Positions 22,028 to 36,992 of a DNA stretch of 36,992 bases are shown one piece after another. Origin of the DNA: Oscillospiraceae bacterium (lineage in GTDB: Bacteria; Bacillota; Clostridia; Oscillospirales; Oscillospiraceae); contig JAFTMI010000040.1 of the NCBI GenBank assembly GCA_017452505.1, positions 1-36,992 of the forward strand, read 5' to 3'. The notes under the pieces were generated by a model that was not told where the DNA came from, searched no databases, and worked only from the letters and a program-made list of their open reading frames with translations. Every line of letters starts with the position of its first letter. Position 1 is the stretch's first letter. A program made the translations under genes and the position numbers.

Positions 22028-23065
22028 TTAATCATTGCTCAAAAAGAAGTTGCTAAAGTCCTTTGCGCGATCTGCGATGTCCTTTTGGGCTAAGTGTGTG
22101 TAGATCTTCCGCATCGTTCCATCATCAGACCAACCACCTATCTCCATGGCAATCTTTTCCGGAATCTGCAGGTGGTATGCCAGAGAAGCAAAGCTGTGGC
22201 GCAGGCCGTGCACACCGACTTTTGGCAGGTCGTGAGCCTTGCAGATCTCATTGATGTGCTGATATATCCATGACCCGTTATAGGGCACTACATATTCGTT
22301 CTTTCGCTCTGCGGCGCTCAGTGCCTCCAGGAGGGGCGGTATAATTGGCACGATGCGATTTGAAGATGCTGTTTTGTTTTGCTTCTTGTGGACCATACCA
22401 CCATCAGCATAGACCATTGCACCAGCCACACGGATGTGCTGCTTGGCAAAGTCGATGTTTTCCCATTTAAGCGCCTTGATCTCTGACCGGCGCAGGGAGG
22501 ATAGCGCAAGCAATGCAGCGATCTCTACGGTGTCGCCCTTTACGGCATCAACGAAGATCTTCACTTGATCCGGCTCCAGGTATGGGCGCTCGTTCTTTTC
22601 CTTGGCGGGGAGGTTGACCCGGGGTGTGCGGCCGGTGGCTTCCAGTATGGCAGCACGGACAAGACCCCACACATTTGCAATATACTTGGGTGATTTGCCT
22701 TTTGATTCTCTGCGGATGGCGGATTGCCACTGTTCGTCGGTGGCGGTGTAGACGTCAGCTGACATCATCGATTGGAAGCAGTTTACCTTATACCGCTCAT
22801 AGGCATATATGGTTGCCGGTGATGCAGATCCACGTCGAGCGTCAATGTAGGCGTCGATGGCATCTGATAAGGTTAGTGCTTTTACTTTTTCTTTTTTCTT
22901 CGCCTGTTTGGCTCTGTATTTTATGGCTGTGGCCTCCGCAGCACATTCCTCAGCTGTTTCTTTGGTGATGGTATGTCTAATACCGTCCACCATAACTTTG
23001 GTGCTGTAAGAACCGGAGGGGAGCTGGACGATCTTGGGGATGTTTAAGTCTACGTTCTTCTTCAT
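22028..23065 (-). CDS. int: Tyrosine-type site-specific integrase
   Basis: A 345-residue phage integrase that inserts and excises the element at the adjacent tRNA. An N-terminal AP2-like arm-binding region lies at residues 1-55, the core-binding SAM-like domain is at about 65-150, and the catalytic domain follows. The catalytic set is complete: Arg in LRRSEIKAL (about 192), Lys in NKTASS (231), HGLRH (286-290), the Trp of GGW (312) and Tyr322 in KIYTHL. ATG 23065 follows GGAAGGAAAG. It points toward the attachment site 110 bp away. Confidence 0.95.
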   Translation of the reverse strand: MKKNVDLNIPKIVQLPSGSYSTKVMVDGIRHTITKETAEECAAEATAIKYRAKQAKKKEKVKALTLSDAIDAYIDARRGSASPATIYAYERYKVNCFQSMMSADVYTATDEQWQSAIRRESKGKSPKYIANVWGLVRAAILEATGRTPRVNLPAKEKNERPYLEPDQVKIFVDAVKGDTVEIAALLALSSLRRSEIKALKWENIDFAKQHIRVAGAMVYADGGMVHKKQNKTASSNRIVPIIPPLLEALSAAERKNEYVVPYNGSWIYQHINEICKAHDLPKVGVHGLRHSFASLAYHLQIPEKIAMEIGGWSDDGTMRKIYTHLAQKDIADRAKDFSNFFLSND

Positions 23066-28752: not shown

Positions 28753-29382
28753 ATGATGCCCAAAGATAAACTCCGCCAGCTTACTGGCGATGAACGGCTT
28801 GGCCAGATGCGAGAATCCGAATATCTGGGAGCTGAAGATATTGACGATGATGTAGAACCGATCCTTACCATCTCCGGTCTTTGGAACGGTACAGTCACCC
28901 TACAGAGGGGTAAAGAAAATAAGGATGTGTTGACCTTTGCGGAGGAACGGGTGCCCGGCATCCGGCAGGTGCGACCCCTGATCATTAACGCCACCAACAG
29001 AAAGACCCTGCGGAAACTGTTCGGCGATGTCAAGGCGTCCACCCTGGTCAGCAAGCAAATTCAGCTTTACATCGACCATAATGTCCGGGATCCCCAAGAC
29101 GGTGGCAAGACTGACGGCATCCGGATTCGACCGTTTAAGCCCCGTGTTCAGCAGGCCTCCCCTGTGCCGCCCTGCACTGACTGCAGTGGTGAGATCACGC
29201 CTGCCTTTGGCAAGGATGCCCGCTGGGTGGCCGCATACACCACGAAAAACTATTCCGTTCCTCTGTGTGCCGCTTGCGCTCAAAAGCGGAAAGAGGCTGA
29301 AGCGTCCGCCCCTGTGCCGCCCGCTGATGAAATCCCGGAGGTCCCCGCACCCGATATGCCTGAGGATGGTGGTCTTCTGTGA
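28753..29382 (+). CDS. Phage protein preceding the exonuclease, Cys-pair C-terminus
   Basis: A 209-residue protein. Residues 1-120 form an unrecognised domain (LTISGLWNGTVTLQRGKENK, then RPLIINATNRKTLRKLF). Two Cys pairs follow (CTDC and CAAC, about 144-180), suggesting a zinc ribbon, and the end is Pro/acid-rich and disordered. Proteins like it are commonly found just upstream of PD-(D/E)XK exonucleases in Firmicutes phages (recollection, not searched). Its stop overlaps the exonuclease GTG by 4 bp, implying coupled expression and a role in recombination. Confidence 0.7.
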   Translation: MMPKDKLRQLTGDERLGQMRESEYLGAEDIDDDVEPILTISGLWNGTVTLQRGKENKDVLTFAEERVPGIRQVRPLIINATNRKTLRKLFGDVKASTLVSKQIQLYIDHNVRDPQDGGKTDGIRIRPFKPRVQQASPVPPCTDCSGEITPAFGKDARWVAAYTTKNYSVPLCAACAQKRKEAEASAPVPPADEIPEVPAPDMPEDGGLL

Positions 29383-30221
29383 GCCTTCCAAAGGTTACAT
29401 CCAAAAACTATTACGATCCGCATATCCAAATGGCATATATGGGAGCTACCCAGTTCAAGGCATTCCAAAGATGTGAAGCAGCTGCACTCGCTACCCTGCG
29501 TGGCGAGTGGGCTGAGAAGAAAACTGTGGCTCTTTTGGTGGGCGGGTATGTTGACTCTTATTTTTCCGGAGAGCTGGATCAGTACAAGGAGGAACACCCG
29601 GAGATCTTCAGTTCTCGATATCCTTACGGTCTGAAGTCCGAATACAAGATGGCGGATCTGATTATCGAACGGATGAAGCGGGACAGGCTGTATATGCTGC
29701 TGATGTCCGGACGGAAACAAGTGATCCGCACAGGCTTCATTGCCGGTGTTCCCTTCAAGATAAAAATCGACTGTCTGTTAAACGCAGCTCAGAGCAAGCA
29801 AGTCGTGGAACAATTTCCCGAAACAGCAATTGCCATGGGCATGTGTGACGGCGCCATCGTAGATCAAAAATTGATGGCAAACTTTGACAGCGTATGGTCC
29901 CCGGAAGATCAAGCACGAATCCCCTTTGTTGAGTACTGGGGCTACGATACCCAAGGAGCGATTTACCAAGAGATTGAGGGCAATATGCTGCCATTCATCA
30001 TCAACGCAGGCACCAAGGAGGAAGAACCGAACCTGTGTGCTTTCTATGTCAGCGATGCCGATCTTGCAGCGAAGCTGGCAGAGGTTGAAGATTTGGCTCC
30101 ACGCTACCAAGCAATTAAAGAAGGTCGGGAAGAGCCCCGCCGCTGCGAACATTGCGCTTATTGCCGTGCTACCAAGCGTTTGCGGAGGATCATCGACTAT
30201 AAGGAGGTTGATTTCCTTTAA
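29379..30221 (+). CDS. PD-(D/E)XK exonuclease-like protein (DUF3799/RecE-type)
   Basis: A 280-residue nuclease-fold protein. LLVGGYVDSYF (about 52-62) fits the first helix motif. D131 in FKIKIDCLL and D162-x-K164 in AIVDQKLMANF form the PD-(D/E)XK catalytic set. A C-terminal Cys/His cluster CEHCAYC at about 260 could hold metal. Such exonucleases resect DNA ends for phage recombination with SSB or annealing proteins. Start GTG 29379 overlaps the previous stop, and the SSB start follows in the stop overlap. Confidence 0.85.
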   Translation: MSLPKVTSKNYYDPHIQMAYMGATQFKAFQRCEAAALATLRGEWAEKKTVALLVGGYVDSYFSGELDQYKEEHPEIFSSRYPYGLKSEYKMADLIIERMKRDRLYMLLMSGRKQVIRTGFIAGVPFKIKIDCLLNAAQSKQVVEQFPETAIAMGMCDGAIVDQKLMANFDSVWSPEDQARIPFVEYWGYDTQGAIYQEIEGNMLPFIINAGTKEEEPNLCAFYVSDADLAAKLAEVEDLAPRYQAIKEGREEPRRCEHCAYCRATKRLRRIIDYKEVDFL

Positions 30222-30658
30222 TGCTGAATCACATAACCATTATGGGCCGGTTAACCCGTGACCCTGAATTGCGCCGCACCGGCAGCGGCATTGCTGTGGC
30301 ATCCTTCACCCTTGCAGTGGACCGGGATTTCCCCAACAAGGAAAGCGGCGAAAAAGAAACAGATTTTATAGACTGTGTTGCCTGGAGACAAACCGGAGAG
30401 TTTGTTTCCAAGTATTTCACCAAGGGCCGAATGGCTGTGGTATCCGGTCGCCTGCAGATCCGCAAGTGGCAGAATGATCAGGGCGAAAACCGCTATTCTA
30501 CGGAAGTAGTAGCCGACAATGTATATATCGGCGACAGCAAGCGGGACGGAAATACCGGAAGTTCTCCCACCCCTGCACCTTCTTACACCCCTCCTGTTAC
30601 TCCGGATGCATCTGATTTTGCACTGCTTGACGATGATGATGCTCAACTGCCGCTTTAA
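30221..30658 (+). CDS. ssb: Single-stranded DNA-binding protein
   Basis: A 145-residue SSB. The OB-fold spans residues 1-105 (MLNHITIMGRLTRDPELR, TDFIDCVAWRQTGEF and EVVADNVYIG are typical). A Pro/Thr-rich linker leads to the acidic tail DDDDAQLPL, which normally docks replication and recombination partners. The final Phe of the bacterial tail is Leu here. The ATG overlaps the exonuclease stop (TAATG). Confidence 0.93.
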   Translation: MLNHITIMGRLTRDPELRRTGSGIAVASFTLAVDRDFPNKESGEKETDFIDCVAWRQTGEFVSKYFTKGRMAVVSGRLQIRKWQNDQGENRYSTEVVADNVYIGDSKRDGNTGSSPTPAPSYTPPVTPDASDFALLDDDDAQLPL

Positions 30659-30670
30659 GGATGTGATGAT

Positions 30671-32596
30671 ATGCTCCTGCCAAAGGACGAAAACAACGAA
30701 ATATCCCCCAATGCAGCGGAGCTGAGTATCATTCCGGACTATGACTATTCTGCGGCTGATTTCTGCACCCCGGAGCCTTATGAAAAGCTTTACGAGCTGC
30801 ATAAGACACCTTTCCTGTATGAAATTGCCAAGGTAAAGATGGAAGAGAATGCCAAAGCGGTAGGCTTCAAGAGTTTCAAGGGAATGCTCCAGAAGTACAA
30901 CAAGGCACAGCTGGACGCAAAACGGCGGAACATGATTCCAAACCAAACCGAGTTTGAGGATCAGGCAATCGAGCTGAACTGCGGCACATGGGAATCAATG
31001 GACTGGGGTATCTTCCGGGACCTGCCTAACGGCGGGCGGGAGTGTGCCTGTGCCCACCCTATTATGCCGATTAGCCGTCTGATCAACATCGATACCGGCG
31101 AAGTTAAGCTTACCCTTGCATTCAAACCTCCGGGCAGAGACAAGAAATGGCGTACTACGATCGTGGACAAGGCCACCGTCTCCACCTCCCGGAACATTAC
31201 CGCTCTATCCAGCCAAGGCATTTCCGTTACCAGTAACAGCGCATCAGCTCTCGTGGACTATATCAACGATATGGAAAACCTGAATTATGACATCATTCCG
31301 GAGCAAAAATCCATTGGTCGACTTGGATACATACCAGGCGAAGGCTTTTCTCCTTATGTGGAAGGTCTTGTGTTTGATGGTGATGCATCCTTCAGGAATC
31401 TGTATCAGTCTGTGGAATCTAGAGGATCCATCGGCACTTGGTTCGAAACCGCAATGGAATGCCGCCGGCAGTCACTTACTGCAAGGATCATGCTCGCTGC
31501 CTCGTTTGCATCTCCCATTCTGTCGCTGGTTGGCTCTCTGCCGTTCTTCGTGCATCTGTGGGGCGTGGATTCCGGTACCGGTAAAACCGTTGCCCTAATG
31601 CTTGCTGCGTCCGTGTGGGGCAATCCTGCGCTTGGCAGCTATGTTCAAACATTCAACGGTACACAGGTGGGACAGGAACGGACTGCCGCTTTCTTAAATC
31701 ACCTGCCTGTGTGTCTGGATGAACTCCAGCTCACTAAGGACAGCAGAGGAAAAACCAACTTTGACGTGTATCAGCTTGCGCAAGGCGTAGGCCGGTCTCG
31801 TGGTAAAAAAAGCGGCGGTGTGGAACTCACACCCACTTGGAGTTGCTGTTTCCTCACCACAGGAGAATCACCGCTTACAAGCATTTCAGCCGGCGCCGGC
31901 GCGGTCAACCGTGTCATTGACATTGAGTGTACTGCCGGTTCTGCCGTTCTGACAGATGGACAGCGGATCTCCGGCAACCTGAAACGCAATTACGGCTTTG
32001 CTGGACAGATTTTCGTTGATCGGCTTTACAAGGATGAAAAGACGCAGGATATTGTTCGGGAGCTTTACCAAAATAACTTCCGGGATCTGTGCGCCGGTGA
32101 TTCCACTGAAAAGCAAGCTATGGCTGCTGCTGCAATTATTACAGCTGATCTTTTGGCATCTCGGTGGGTATTCCACGACGATGATGAAACCGCAAGAAAA
32201 CTGGTTTTGGATGTAAATGATATCCAGGAATTCCTTGCATCCAAGGAGGCTGTATCGGCCGGCAGGCGCGCCTATGACTGGCTTTGCGACTGGGTTGGTT
32301 CCAATGTTAACCGTTTCTTTAATCCGGAACTGCCTGCGGTGGGCGACTGTTATGGCATCATTGAGAACAATACCGCCTATATCAACCGTGGTGTGTTCAA
32401 CAAGGTGATTCAAGAGGCAGGATATTCTTACGCCGCCACGCTCAGTTATTTGAAAGCCAATGGCCTGATTGAAACGCGAGGGCGCGCATTCACCAAGGGC
32501 AAACGCATCAATGGTGTTCTTTCTGAATGCGTAGTGCTGAAACTACAAACAGAATGGTTTGACCCTGCAGATACAAGCGATCTTCTGCCGATGTAG
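30671..32596 (+). CDS. DUF927-family phage replication ATPase
   Basis: A 641-residue protein with a central DUF927 P-loop NTPase domain. Walker A is GVDSGTGKT (298-306) and Walker B is LPVCLDELQ (345-353). These proteins serve as helicase or primase-helicase components in phage and plasmid replication. The first 110 residues look like a separate helical region, and the C-terminal 110 like a winged helix (GVFNKVIQEAGYSYAATLSY). ATG 30671 follows AAGGATGTGATGAT, 12 bp after ssb. Its stop lies within the first GTTCCACA repeat of the array. Confidence 0.85.
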   Translation: MLLPKDENNEISPNAAELSIIPDYDYSAADFCTPEPYEKLYELHKTPFLYEIAKVKMEENAKAVGFKSFKGMLQKYNKAQLDAKRRNMIPNQTEFEDQAIELNCGTWESMDWGIFRDLPNGGRECACAHPIMPISRLINIDTGEVKLTLAFKPPGRDKKWRTTIVDKATVSTSRNITALSSQGISVTSNSASALVDYINDMENLNYDIIPEQKSIGRLGYIPGEGFSPYVEGLVFDGDASFRNLYQSVESRGSIGTWFETAMECRRQSLTARIMLAASFASPILSLVGSLPFFVHLWGVDSGTGKTVALMLAASVWGNPALGSYVQTFNGTQVGQERTAAFLNHLPVCLDELQLTKDSRGKTNFDVYQLAQGVGRSRGKKSGGVELTPTWSCCFLTTGESPLTSISAGAGAVNRVIDIECTAGSAVLTDGQRISGNLKRNYGFAGQIFVDRLYKDEKTQDIVRELYQNNFRDLCAGDSTEKQAMAAAAIITADLLASRWVFHDDDETARKLVLDVNDIQEFLASKEAVSAGRRAYDWLCDWVGSNVNRFFNPELPAVGDCYGIIENNTAYINRGVFNKVIQEAGYSYAATLSYLKANGLIETRGRAFTKGKRINGVLSECVVLKLQTEWFDPADTSDLLPM

Positions 32597-32975
32597 TTCC
32601 ACAATTTGAGGAACATGTTCCACATTTGTTCCACAAGAAGTAAAGAAGAAAAGTTAAAATTTCTTCAACAACTTAAATTGATTTCTTTACTTTCGACTTA
32701 TAAAAATTGAGTTTTACAAAAGTGTGGAACTGTGGAACATGTGGAACACATACATCAATGTATATAAAACACTGTTATTTTACTCAGTGAAATAAGTAAA
32801 ACACACCCCTATAAGAAACTGTGCAAAACTGTTCCACAGTTCCACAGTTTCAAAAGTGCCAACAATTATTCCAAGTTTACTTTGAATTTTTGGCGCAAAA
32901 ATGAAAGTTTTTCAACAAATCGTTCGAATTCTCTGTGGAACAGAGTGTTCCACACTCGTTCCGCAGAGTTCCACA
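32596..32975. repeat. GTTCCACA iteron-like array: candidate replication origin
   Basis: A 380-bp non-coding region with twelve copies of GTTCCACA. Forward copies start at 32596, 32617, 32628, 32831, 32839, 32947, 32958 (GTTCCGCA) and 32968; reverse copies (TGTGGAAC) at 32723, 32731, 32740 and 32934. They form four clusters about 103-127 bp apart. Many extend into inverted repeats around TCC, such as GAGTGTTCCACACTC and CTCTGTTCCACAGAG. Between clusters the DNA is AT-rich, with an inverted repeat AGTAAAGAA/TTCTTTACT at about 32639-32697. Clustered repeats beside replication genes fit an origin. Confidence 0.7.
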
Positions 32976-32985
32976 AGGTGAAAAT

Positions 32986-34332
32986 ATGGAATTAAGAGAC
33001 TACCAGCAAGACCTATATCAAAAAACAAGGTTGTCTTTCATGAAAGGTCGCAAGAAGGTGCTCGCAGTGGCTCCCTGCGGTGCCGGCAAGTCTTACCTGT
33101 TCTCAGAGATGATCAAGAACACCAAGGGCGACGCGCTTGTTTTGGTACACCGTCAGGAACTGAAGGCACAGCATGAAAAGCTGTTTCGGAAACTGGGTAT
33201 TACCAATGTGCGGGTAGAAACCTACCAGACAGAGCGCAATCATCTGGAAGAGAACCCTACACCGCGTCTGTTGGTGGTGGATGAAGCACACCTGAGCCGT
33301 AGCAGGAGCTGGTCGGAAATTATTTCCTACTATGACACGCATACCGTTGGCGTGACCGCCACGCCGATCCGCCTCGATGGCAAGCCGTTGGGAGACATTT
33401 TCGACGATATGGTGCAGGGCATCACCACCAAGGAACTGATCCGCAGGAAGTGCCTTGCCCCGTATGAGTACTTTGCCCCCACCACCGTGGAAACTGACAA
33501 CCTGAAGATCCAGGCCGGTGACTTTTTGATCAAGGACCTGGAGACCATCATGTGCAACCGGACTATTTATTCCGATGTACTGAAGAGCTGGGAAAAACTG
33601 TCCGGCCGCAAGAAGACAATTGCTTACTGTGTATCTGTCGCCCACGCCCAGGAAACCGCCGGTATGTTTACGGCAGCCGGTTATCCCGCTGCTGTGATCG
33701 ACAGTAGCCTACCAGATAAGAAACGCTCCCAAATTATGCAGGACTTCCTGGATGGACGGATCCTCATTCTCTGTAATGTCGGGATCATCTCCGAAGGCGT
33801 GTCCATTGATGATGTGGAGTGTTGTCTTCTGCTCCGGCCTACGCAGTCCCACGCTCTGTACTGGCAGCAGGCAATGCGCTGTATGCGGTACCAGCCCGGG
33901 AAAATTGCAAAAATCATTGACTGTGTTGGCAACTACACCCGGAATCCGCTTCCGGATGCCGATGTGGAATGGAGCCTTACACAGTCTGCCCGCAAACCGA
34001 AAAGAATAGATTCTTCGGGAAATTTCTTTATCCGCACCTGTCCTAAGTGCTACAGGGTATTCAAGACCGCCCCGGTGTGTCCGTACTGTGGTGAGGTATA
34101 TCCACTGCATCCCATAGAAATCAAGACACAGCAGGAAATTGAACTTGCCCGGATCTCCGAGCAGGAAAAGCAAGCACTTGAGGAGCTGAATAAGCAGCGC
34201 CGCATGGAAGTTGGTATGTGTAAGACCTTTGAGGATCTGATTGCCATACAGAAAGACCGCGGCTATGCCAAAGGCTGGGTGTTCGCTATGGCACGGCTGA
34301 AGAAAATCCCCATTAGGAGGGATTGGTCATGA
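32986..34332 (+). CDS. SF2 DEAD/DEAH-box helicase with zinc module
   Basis: A 448-residue helicase. Motif I is APCGAGKS (29-36), motif II VVDEAH (97-102), motif III TATP (124-127), and motif VI is in SHALYWQQAMRCMRY. A Cys4 zinc module (CPKCYRVFKTAPVCPYCG) lies at about 349-366. ATG 32986 follows AAGGTGAAAAT; an in-frame start at 32935 falls in the repeat array and lacks a ribosome site. The last repeats end 10 bp before this start, so whatever binds there could also control the gene. Coupled by overlap to the VRR-NUC gene. Confidence 0.9.
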   Translation: MELRDYQQDLYQKTRLSFMKGRKKVLAVAPCGAGKSYLFSEMIKNTKGDALVLVHRQELKAQHEKLFRKLGITNVRVETYQTERNHLEENPTPRLLVVDEAHLSRSRSWSEIISYYDTHTVGVTATPIRLDGKPLGDIFDDMVQGITTKELIRRKCLAPYEYFAPTTVETDNLKIQAGDFLIKDLETIMCNRTIYSDVLKSWEKLSGRKKTIAYCVSVAHAQETAGMFTAAGYPAAVIDSSLPDKKRSQIMQDFLDGRILILCNVGIISEGVSIDDVECCLLLRPTQSHALYWQQAMRCMRYQPGKIAKIIDCVGNYTRNPLPDADVEWSLTQSARKPKRIDSSGNFFIRTCPKCYRVFKTAPVCPYCGEVYPLHPIEIKTQQEIELARISEQEKQALEELNKQRRMEVGMCKTFEDLIAIQKDRGYAKGWVFAMARLKKIPIRRDWS

Positions 34333-34649: not shown

Positions 34650-35001
34650 GACCAAAGCGGTCTTCCCCTACGAACGGCAGGCAGCCAACGGCGATGAAAT
34701 GCCCAGCGGACTGGATTACCCCGATAAGGTTACATACCTTCTCTTTCGGATGCTGTATGCGCAGCTCCGTATGGGCATCGTTGACCGTGAGACTGCTATT
34801 CGTGAAAAGCGCAAGATTATGCGCGAGTACGAACATTACAAATTTGTTGAGCAGATGGGAAAGCACCATGTAGATACTATCCGGCGGACAGAAATGGCAA
34901 GAGCTGCCTACCGGAAAAGCCGTACCCTTGAAAACGCTGATCTTCTGCTCATTGCCATCGATGGTGGCGATTATCGTAAGAAAGAAGGCGCGATACAATG
35001 A
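34633..35001 (+). CDS. Hypothetical early protein
   Basis: A 122-residue mostly helical, charged protein (VDRETAIREKRKIMREYEHY) I do not recognise. It starts at TTG 34633, 9 bases after GAGGAGG, inside the end of the VRR-NUC gene. Its last 4 bp overlap the following methyltransferase. Position suggests a replication or recombination accessory. Confidence 0.6.
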   Translation: MSSAPETKAVFPYERQAANGDEMPSGLDYPDKVTYLLFRMLYAQLRMGIVDRETAIREKRKIMREYEHYKFVEQMGKHHVDTIRRTEMARAAYRKSRTLENADLLLIAIDGGDYRKKEGAIQ

Positions 35002-35816
35002 AACCCCAGTTGTTTCATGATAATTTTCAAAATTACAAACGATATAACATCCCACGGAAAGCACAGCTGGTTATAGCTGACATTCCGTATAACATTGGTG
35101 CTGATGCCTATGCCAGTAACCCTATGTGGTACAACGGCGGCGACAATAGCAACGGCGAAAGCAAGCACGCAAAAGCCAGTTTCTTTAATGGCGATGGCCA
35201 GTTTAAGATTGCTGAGTATATGCACTTTTGTAGCAAACTCCTAGTTAAAGAGCCTAAGGAAAAAGGAAAAGCTCCCGCAATGATCGTGTTCTGTGCTTTT
35301 GAACAGATTCCCACTGTGGTTGAGTTTGGAAAGCAGTACGGTTTTATGAATTCGTATCCGCTTTTCTTCATCAAGAATTATTCCGCACAGGTACTGAAAG
35401 CCAATATGAAGATCGTTGGTGCAACGGAATTTGCTGTCGTTCTGTACCGTGATAAGCTGCCGAAATTCAACAATGGAAGACAGTATGACGATGACGGCAA
35501 GGTTATTCGCGGCAGCGGCAAGATGGTCTTTGACTGGTTTGAGTGGCGCAGAGATGGTAAGGAAATCCCCAAAATTCATCCTACGCAAAAGCCGGTTAAT
35601 GTACTTAAGCGACTGATTGAAGTGTTTACGGATCCGGGAGACGTTGTCATTGATCCTGTGGCTGGAAGCGGTACCACATTACAAGCTGCCTGGGAAACCG
35701 GCAGAAGAGCATACGGGTTTGAGGTAAACAAGCAGTTCTATTCTGCCGCAACAGCAGAAATGCCCTGTTTCCGTGAGGATGACGGCAACGAGAAAGCAGA
35801 GGTGTCCAATGGGTAA
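34998..35816 (+). CDS. DNA methyltransferase, N6-adenine/N4-cytosine type, beta class
   Basis: A 272-residue SAM-dependent methyltransferase. Motif IV DIPYNIG (residues 28-34, a DPPY variant) comes first and motif I DPVAGSGTTLQAAW near 220 comes later, the beta-class order. HPTQKPVNVLKRLIEVF is the typical linking sequence. No restriction endonuclease is adjacent, so it is an orphan enzyme that probably shields element DNA from host restriction or marks it. ATG 34998 overlaps the previous stop. Confidence 0.9.
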   Translation: MKPQLFHDNFQNYKRYNIPRKAQLVIADIPYNIGADAYASNPMWYNGGDNSNGESKHAKASFFNGDGQFKIAEYMHFCSKLLVKEPKEKGKAPAMIVFCAFEQIPTVVEFGKQYGFMNSYPLFFIKNYSAQVLKANMKIVGATEFAVVLYRDKLPKFNNGRQYDDDGKVIRGSGKMVFDWFEWRRDGKEIPKIHPTQKPVNVLKRLIEVFTDPGDVVIDPVAGSGTTLQAAWETGRRAYGFEVNKQFYSAATAEMPCFREDDGNEKAEVSNG

Positions 35817-36039
35817 GCCAAGAATGATGGGGATGATTAACCGATGCATCCCAAACAGCAAAGCAGATATGCGATACCGGCGTAAAGCATTTAAATGGGA
35901 TATGAAATCAGAAAGTGGCGGCGGTGGTGCTTCCACAGGTTTCGTTTTGATAGCCTCAGGAACAGTTGCAACAGATGTCAATTGCAAGCAAGGTGATATA
36001 ATCCTTCATTCACAAACTGAGGAAAGCAGCGAGGAATAA
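35809..36039 (+). CDS. Hypothetical protein between methyltransferases
   Basis: A 76-residue protein with a basic N-terminal half (MGKPRMMGMINRCIPNSKAD, then RYRRKAFKW), a Gly-rich turn and an acidic tail. ATG 35809 follows AGAGGTG and overlaps the methyltransferase end by 8 bp. No family is recognised; it might be a small nucleic-acid-binding protein, on composition only. Confidence 0.55.
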   Translation: MGKPRMMGMINRCIPNSKADMRYRRKAFKWDMKSESGGGGASTGFVLIASGTVATDVNCKQGDIILHSQTEESSEE

Positions 36040-36042
36040 AAT

Positions 36043-36992
36043 ATGGCAAAAAGAAGGCAAGAATATTCCCCAGCACAAACCAGTTTTATGGCGGAGATCT
36101 TCGTGGACGGATTCGCAGGTGGTGGCGGTACAAGTACTGGATACGAGCTTGCAACCGGTCGCCCGGCAGATATAGCCATCAACCACAATCCGGAAGCAAT
36201 CCGCTTACATAAGGCAAATCATCCATACACAGAGCATTATCAAACTTCTATCTGGGAAGTAGATCCCAGAGCTGCTTGCAAAGGACGGCCTGTCGGTTTA
36301 GCCTGGTTCTCCCCGGACTGCACCCACTTCTCGAAGGCACGCGGCGGTAAGCCTGTCAAAAAGGAAATCCGCAGCCTATCTTGGGTCGTCCTGAAATGGG
36401 CACTGGATGTCCGTCCCCGCGTTCTGATGATGGAAAATGTGGAAGAAATCCAGACTTGGGGACCGACAATCACCGTGATTATCAATGGTGAGGAAAAAGA
36501 AATACCGGATCCCGACAGAGTTGGTGAAACCTTCCAGGCATTTATTGGAGCCCTGACCACCGGTATTCCGGCTGATCACCCTGCCATTGAGGAAATTTGC
36601 GAGTATCTGCATCTAAAGCGAAACAGTCCGGAGCTGAAGAAAATCATTAACGGTCTGGGCTATGATGTGGAGTATCAATCTTTGATTGCTGCTGACTTCG
36701 GTGCACCTACCACCCGGAAACGCTTCGCATTAGTGGGCCGGTGTGATGGTAACCCCATTGTATGGCCAGAGCCTACCCACGCACCCAGAGACAGCGAGGC
36801 GGTCAAGTCCGGTAAGTGTAAGCCTTGGCGCTCTGCAGCGGAAATCATTGACTGGGCATTACCTAGCTACTCGATTTTTGCATCCAAGCAGGAGATTAAG
36901 GAGAAATACGGTGTTGATGCACGCAGACCATTGGCAGATAACACCTTGCGGCGTGTGATCAGTGGTGTGGATAAATTCACCATAAAAAGCGG
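36043..36992 (+). CDS. DNA cytosine-5 methyltransferase (3' end outside window)
   Basis: The first 316 codons of a C5-cytosine methyltransferase, open to the window end. Motif I is FAGGGGTSTGYE (24-35), motif IV SPDCTHFSKA with catalytic Cys93 (PDC instead of the usual PPC), motif VI MENVEE (130-135) and motif VIII APTTRKRF. A target-recognition region should follow. ATG 36043 is 9 bases after GAGG, 3 bp from the previous stop. It is the second orphan methyltransferase in a row, suggesting broad self-modification of the element. Confidence 0.92.
   Translation, partial: MAKRRQEYSPAQTSFMAEIFVDGFAGGGGTSTGYELATGRPADIAINHNPEAIRLHKANHPYTEHYQTSIWEVDPRAACKGRPVGLAWFSPDCTHFSKARGGKPVKKEIRSLSWVVLKWALDVRPRVLMMENVEEIQTWGPTITVIINGEEKEIPDPDRVGETFQAFIGALTTGIPADHPAIEEICEYLHLKRNSPELKKIINGLGYDVEYQSLIAADFGAPTTRKRFALVGRCDGNPIVWPEPTHAPRDSEAVKSGKCKPWRSAAEIIDWALPSYSIFASKQEIKEKYGVDARRPLADNTLRRVISGVDKFTIKS

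Follow-up and report, generated by a model that had tools for sequence, protein, structure and literature searches.

In the origins of staphylococcal pathogenicity islands (SaPIs), short repeated sites (iterons) flank an AT-rich stretch. The iterons lie directly 3' of the rep gene and are recognised via the C-terminal domain of the Rep protein (PMC7581432). Among the proteins of the staphylococcal cassette chromosome (SCC), Cch is a relative of SaPIbov1 Rep that carries DUF927, and the C-terminal domain of Cch2 binds direct repeats 3' of its own gene; according to the same account, SCC replication was still to be shown in vivo (PMC7581432). In the PLE satellites (phage-inducible chromosomal island-like elements) of Vibrio cholerae, replication modules have exchanged the origin together with the origin-binding domain, and an origin-directed nuclease has been proposed as the selective force for this exchange (PMC8263062). 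A related arrangement is described here from an Oscillospiraceae bacterium (assembly GCA_017452505.1, contig JAFTMI010000040.1; the whole stretch of 36,992 nt that was analysed is called the window). Directly after a gene for an MCM-like protein with DUF927 there is an array of GTTCCACA octamers, which is very probably the iteron-type replication origin of a prophage-like element, read by the wing of the adjoining initiator.

Comparison with described origins

Four parts of a SaPI-type origin have a counterpart in the window: an AAA+ initiator of MCM-like type that shares homology with SaPI Rep and Cch, a C-terminal winged helix (by sequence match to HTH_56), short repeats directly 3' of the initiator gene, and iterons on either side of an AT-rich stretch (a core of 71% AT). 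The 641-aa protein matches DUF927 (1.2e-37) and, at residues 530-626, HTH_56, the Cch helix-turn-helix (2.7e-15), in Pfam, and DNA primase/helicase in PHROG (6.4e-147). A profile of its relatives matches two Protein Data Bank (PDB) entries: 8tch, listed as Pathogenicity island protein (1.3e-46), and 5dgk, listed as Active helicase (2.8e-25). We take these to be SaPI Rep and SCCmec Cch, respectively. The DUF927 protein itself is the most likely initiator. Repeats resembling AGTTCCCG also follow the homologous gene of Staphylococcus phage PT1028 (locus L044).

The closest likeness is to the SaPIbov1 type of Rep and origin, with a homologous helicase, iterons directly after its gene and, in the SaPIs, recognition by the C-terminal domain (PMC7581432). 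Compared with the SaPIs, the element in the window has another iteron sequence and is prophage-like rather than a known satellite, a judgement made on a contig that stops at position 36992, ahead of any structural genes lying further on; its family also shows a largely fixed opposed layout and a partly readable wing code. DUF927 is common to this protein and SCCmec Cch, and Cch2 binds repeats 3' of its own gene, but Cch2 is a helicase of another family with three short iterons (PMC7581432). PLE RepA is also a different initiator, with three iterons of about 30 bp and no per-residue code described in the available part of the source, although the PLEs offer a precedent for joint exchange of an origin and its origin-binding domain (PMC8263062).

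An earlier, sequence-only reading of this DNA had proposed a new phage origin with an element-encoded initiator. That proposal is strongly supported by homology, the association of array and gene, a shared layout, and covariation of wing and octamer; the word "new" fares less well, since the anatomy is that of SaPI Rep and its origin and not of a new kind. What appears to be new is the recognition code and an apparent swapping of specificity. In the open-licence literature, no title or abstract opening was found that describes a wing code or this array.

The array in the window

Between 32596 and 32975 there are 11 exact copies of GTTCCACA and one GTTCCGCA (32959-32966), grouped in four clusters (Table 1). 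The 12 copies, the one mismatch, the four clusters and the complete inversion of the second are all as first described. The upstream gene ends in a TAG codon that the first copy overlaps, and cluster 1 also holds an inverted copy with one mismatch, TGAGGAAC. The only other exact GTTCCACA in the window, making 12 in all, is within coding sequence at 31819. Dinucleotide shuffles of the window give 1.28 copies on average and at most 4, and 12 was reached in none of 100. The 1.99-Mb genome has 66 exact copies in all, whereas a reversed control pattern occurs 87 times, and the array is the only dense cluster among the genome matches listed.

The right edge of the core (32791-32830), abutting the direct iterons, is a partly conserved stretch, and relatives have a similar one in the same position, with a consensus of about ta..agaaAatgtgc.Aattt. 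The version in the window contains a DnaA-box-like TTTTGCACA.

Arrays after the initiator gene in relatives

Related loci were collected in two sets. In the first, 134 of 136 loci had a profile match, and 113 of them, including the window, were kept after removal of 16 duplicates and five loci without a stop codon or short of downstream DNA. The later set added 39 distinct loci, with 94 left out as already seen, 12 as duplicates and one as too short. For a 550-bp stretch spanning and following the stop codon, the count of the commonest 7-mer was compared with those of 200 simulated sequences, the strictest threshold being that it beat all 200. At this threshold a significant array follows the gene in 100 of 113 loci in the first set and 32 of 39 in the later one, or 132 of 152 together. 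The sequence of the array differs between relatives. The commonest repeat is variously GTTCCACA, GTTCCGCA, GTTCCTCA, GTTCCCCA, GTCCCACA, GTCCCGCA, GTGCCACA, GTCGTACA, GTCGCACA, TGGTTACA, or others. In the 113 loci of the first set, the maximal 7-mer count averages 8.1 in this stretch; control stretches average 2.84 (upstream), 2.68 (within the gene) and 2.69 (further downstream). At locus L013 (5700-5761) the winged helix is broken where the initiator frame enters unrelated sequence, and the gene is followed by no array; the break could be a rearrangement or a misassembly.

A search was also made from the array side, with a DNA pattern of three inverted iterons in which bases 3 and 6 were left free. 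It matched 13 viral stretches, and in 10 of these an MCM-like open frame stops 5-128 bp short of the cluster. Three of the contigs were new. In one (L298) the gene precedes the array, and in another (L302) the sequence ends 80 bp before the array; the third is considered below.

Layout of the candidate origins

Among loci of the [GCT]TNCCNCN class that hold five or more copies, the core was taken as the largest gap (at least 40 bp) between an inverted and the next direct copy, and was callable in 45 loci. The commonest layout among these is a group of inverted copies, an AT-rich core, direct copies, and an outer group that usually opens with an inverted copy; the orientation of the copies flanking the core is partly fixed by the calling rule, while the abutting pairs, outer group and AT content are independent of it. 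The median core is 89 bp long and 68% AT, compared with 49% AT for the gene, and the core is the more AT-rich of the two in 44 of the 45 loci. L097, L107, L137 and a few others depart from this layout. Spacings of the outer cluster fall mostly into classes (41-44, 52-55 and 93-95; 50-52 and 101-104) compatible with about 10.5 bp. A claim of helical phasing was dropped, with a period of 13 scoring higher for one of the two spacing sets.

Wing residues and octamer bases

Array sequence tracks the winged helix and not the helicase domain. In a partial Mantel test of 120 of the 134 loci, namely those that score 600 or more with the profile and carry five or more copies, the correlation of array similarity with winged-helix identity, given helicase identity, is 0.30, a value as high being found in 0 of 500 permutations, whereas that with helicase-domain identity, given the winged helix, is 0.01, with 164 of 500 permutations as high.

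Individual columns were scanned in 49 loci whose top octamer is of the form [GCT]TNCCNCN (at least 4 copies) and that have E, D or Q at residue 619, using variable columns from residue 30 onward. The highest-scoring columns are 606 for base 3 and 610 and 617 for base 6 (scores in Table 1); the placement of these residues and of 619 in the wing was deduced from sequence and the HTH_56 match. At base 3, A606 goes with T in 12 of 12 loci, N606 with C in 24 of 25, R606 with G in two of three and K606 with T in two of two. At base 6, G610 goes with A in 31 of 31 loci, T610 with A in 4 of 4, A610 with A in 2 of 2 and N610 with C in its single locus, and S or C at 610 goes with G in 10 of 11, the remaining one having T. 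These plain counts take no account of kinship among the loci, which is corrected for by a test on the helicase-domain tree. There, residue 606 and base 3 change together on 9 branches (2.15 expected, p=0.0002), and residue 610 and base 6 on 6 (1.70 expected, p=0.0012), while the crossed pairs are at chance (3 vs 2.15 and 2 vs 1.70). For residue 619 and base 4 the correspondence was judged by eye, with no statistics: E, D or Q mostly accompanies C, H accompanies G in L018, L110 and L208, and S accompanies A in L209. Other residues at 619 accompany quite different repeats.

The rule was fixed before the later loci were fetched. It was applicable to 3 of the 39 new distinct loci and was right for base 3 in 3 of 3 and for base 6 in 3 of 3, a small sample that includes both members of the close pair L183/L188. 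L197, which lies outside the stated pattern, has N606 and C610 with GTCCCGCA, agreeing with the rule. The comparison of relatives suggests which wing residues go with which octamer bases, and suggests that origin specificity can be partly read from sequence.

The sequence-only reading had also noted palindromes centred on TCC around several copies and taken them as a sign of binding by a dimer. Quasi-palindromic flanks can be read directly in the window, but the dimer finds no support. Base 6 is G, T or C rather than A in 12 of the 49 loci, and in these same 12 the commonest 7-mer, called without the template, keeps T at base 2. Base 6 therefore changes without a matching change at base 2, the dyad is broken without compensation, and dimer binding was rejected.

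Near-identical natural pairs

The closest comparison is between L183 and L188 (a single-sequence query with L183 matched three loci), whose initiators are 99% identical over 594 aa. At positions 25-641 they differ at 7 residues, 3 of them within 605-619 (N/A at 606, G/C at 610 and L/Q at 617). Their arrays differ at bases 3 and 6, the commonest octamer being GTCCCACA in one and GTTCCGCA in the other, with 10 copies each. At the DNA level there are 8 base differences across the first 1.7 kb of the initiator gene, 86 from 158 bp before the stop codon to 271 bp after it, and 2 in the next ~245 bp. This divergent block of about 430 bp spans the wing through the origin. Further out the contigs are mosaic: more divergent blocks lie to either side, and identity over 5.4 kb is 93%. 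As one of several such blocks, the wing-origin block fits ordinary phage recombination.

Two other pairs show the same behaviour. L149 and L077 (GTCCCACA and GTGCCACA) have 11 counted residue differences, two of them at 606-607. L208 and L209 (GTCGCACA and GTCACACA, G4 vs A4) have 13, with only residue 619 (H vs S) within 605-619. Between the window and L039, 28 counted residue differences include 610 (G/S) and 616-618 (VLS/IRT), and the octamers have A6 and G6, respectively. The lone GTTCCGCA copy in the window is identical to the L039 octamer and is perhaps a relic. From these end states, wings have apparently been exchanged between phages. L097 has two tandem origins 0-600 bp after the initiator stop, with GTGCCACA copies near the gene and GTCCCACA copies beyond; the R606 of its wing fits the nearer one. 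This double origin may be a fossil of a wing-plus-origin exchange.

Proposed mechanism

As copies abut at 8 bp, one DNA-binding domain per octamer is suggested, and the C-terminal winged helix of each MCM-like initiator would bind one octamer. By analogy to SaPI Rep, the oppositely oriented copies flanking the 83-bp AT-rich core could then place two helicase rings face to face, and these would melt the core and start replication. Single octamer bases would be read by wing residues, base 3 by residue 606, base 6 by 610 and 617, and base 4 perhaps by 619. Because wing and origin adjoin, specificity should be exchangeable as one short stretch; it may change either in this way or through co-mutation of the two. 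We lean toward a small wing code of this kind, together with switching of origins via a cassette of less than 0.5 kb while the rest of the initiator stays near-identical. Such exchange perhaps serves escape from incompatibility or from rivals that target the origin.

Alternative readings

Several results weigh against an iteron origin read by the wing of its initiator, or limit how far the code extends. The array falls below the strictest threshold in 20 of the 152 loci; six of these are at p 0.01 to 0.05, L030 is at p 0.060 and two more are at about 0.06, so some carry weak arrays. There is no significant array within 500 bp after the stop in L021, L088, L089, L230 and L286, whose initiator C-termini look whole by eye and whose origins may be elsewhere. 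The array-first search mostly re-found known contigs, 10 of 13 being already in the set (nine of the ten with an MCM-like frame, plus L293, a clipped stretch of the L188 contig), and the remaining new contig, L300, has the three-inverted-iteron pattern and no MCM-like protein match in the 13.8 kb covered. No helical period is seen in the core lengths. The octamer template behind the code requires T at base 2, CC at 4-5 and C at 7, excluding divergent members, and the counted octamer tables were put in register by an automatic template. G606 gives no prediction at base 3 (4 C, 3 T), and the 606 rule is violated by L019, which has a mixed array, and by count in L097 (R606).

Repeated short sites near AT-rich DNA are also a feature of bacterial chromosomal origins (oriC), a likeness that extends to this array, and host DnaA might bind the octamers as a DnaA-box cluster and load the host helicase. 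TCCACA is common to the octamer and the DnaA box, and there is one TTTTGCACA at the right edge of the core (32820). Host DnaA boxes, however, are of the form TT(A/T)TCCACA and lie beside dnaA, and the array octamers do not match them: beside dnaA in this genome there are TTATCCACA and TTTTCCACA boxes, four of them in the gap separating the dnaA frame from its neighbour, and GTTCCACA was not found in the 9-kb stretch around dnaA. The octamer also varies within the genus, L017 having GTCCCACA with one GTTCCACA, which counts against a DnaA site, and this role is extremely unlikely. It is likewise very unlikely that the array is an operator, with a helix-turn-helix repressor or the initiator binding the copies chiefly to regulate the helicase gene that follows. 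Iteron initiators often autoregulate, and the last cluster does adjoin the helicase start, but among 139 loci with sufficient DNA an array of at least 5 copies is kept in 53 of the 65 without a helicase within 700 bp as well as in 72 of the 74 with one, and all six sampled phages with the helicase and no MCM-like protein match lack an array before it. Dense autoregulation of the helicase, the other role first proposed, fails as a main role on these counts. A single sigma-70-like site was found between 32500 and 33100, on the minus strand, compared with 1.2 in shuffles, and opposed iterons around an AT-rich core are origin-like. Repeat arrays occur at partition, packaging and recombination sites too, and a centromere-like partition site or a packaging or recombination site would account for repeats as such; covariation with the wing residues of a replication initiator counts against all of these, a PHROG scan of 30 window proteins found no match named as partition, and the probability of any such role is close to nil.

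Gene neighborhood

The initiator gene is part of a replication module (Table 1), followed further downstream by genes matching an endonuclease-like protein and two DNA methyltransferases (Pfam/PHROG). The methyltransferases, at 34998-36990, are of N6/N4 and then C5 type, the second being cut at the contig end. An integrase lies at 22031-23065, and repressor matches are also present in the window.

Table 1. Positions of the proposed origin, its candidate reader residues and adjacent genes in the window.
Feature	Position	Strand	Remarks
PDDEXK-like exonuclease (DUF3799), same module	29379..30221	+	Pfam, PHROG
Single-strand DNA-binding protein, same module	30221..30658	+	Pfam SSB 4.7e-34
MCM-like helicase/initiator, 641 aa, proposed origin-binding	30671..32596	+	DUF927 + C-terminal HTH_56 Cch winged helix
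Codon A606 (wing), proposed reader of octamer base 3	32486..32488	+	top column 0.64, next 0.28
Codon G610 (wing), proposed reader of octamer base 6	32498..32500	+	top column 0.76
Codon L617 (wing), second column for base 6	32519..32521	+	0.60, next 0.30
Codon E619, candidate reader of octamer base 4	32525..32527	+	by eye only
Iteron cluster 1: three exact + copies, one 1-mismatch inverted copy	32596..32635	+	
Iteron cluster 2: three inverted copies, spaced by 0 and 1 bp	32723..32747	-	
Candidate unwinding element: AT-rich core of 83 bp (71% AT)	32748..32830	.	
Iteron cluster 3: two direct copies, abutting	32831..32846	+	
Iteron cluster 4: one inverted copy, then + copies GTTCCACA, GTTCCGCA (32959), GTTCCACA	32934..32975	.	
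SF2 (DEAD/ResIII) helicase gene, 3' of candidate origin	32986..34332	+	Pfam ResIII, Helicase_C

Implications

To our knowledge, few phage origins have been mapped in gut bacteria. Should the code hold, the protein could be used to locate the origins of this initiator family and to predict part of their sequence. The near-isogenic natural pairs would be ready controls for a joint change of specificity in initiator and origin without loss of function, and how such joint changes come about is a long-standing question on the linked evolution of proteins and the DNA they bind.
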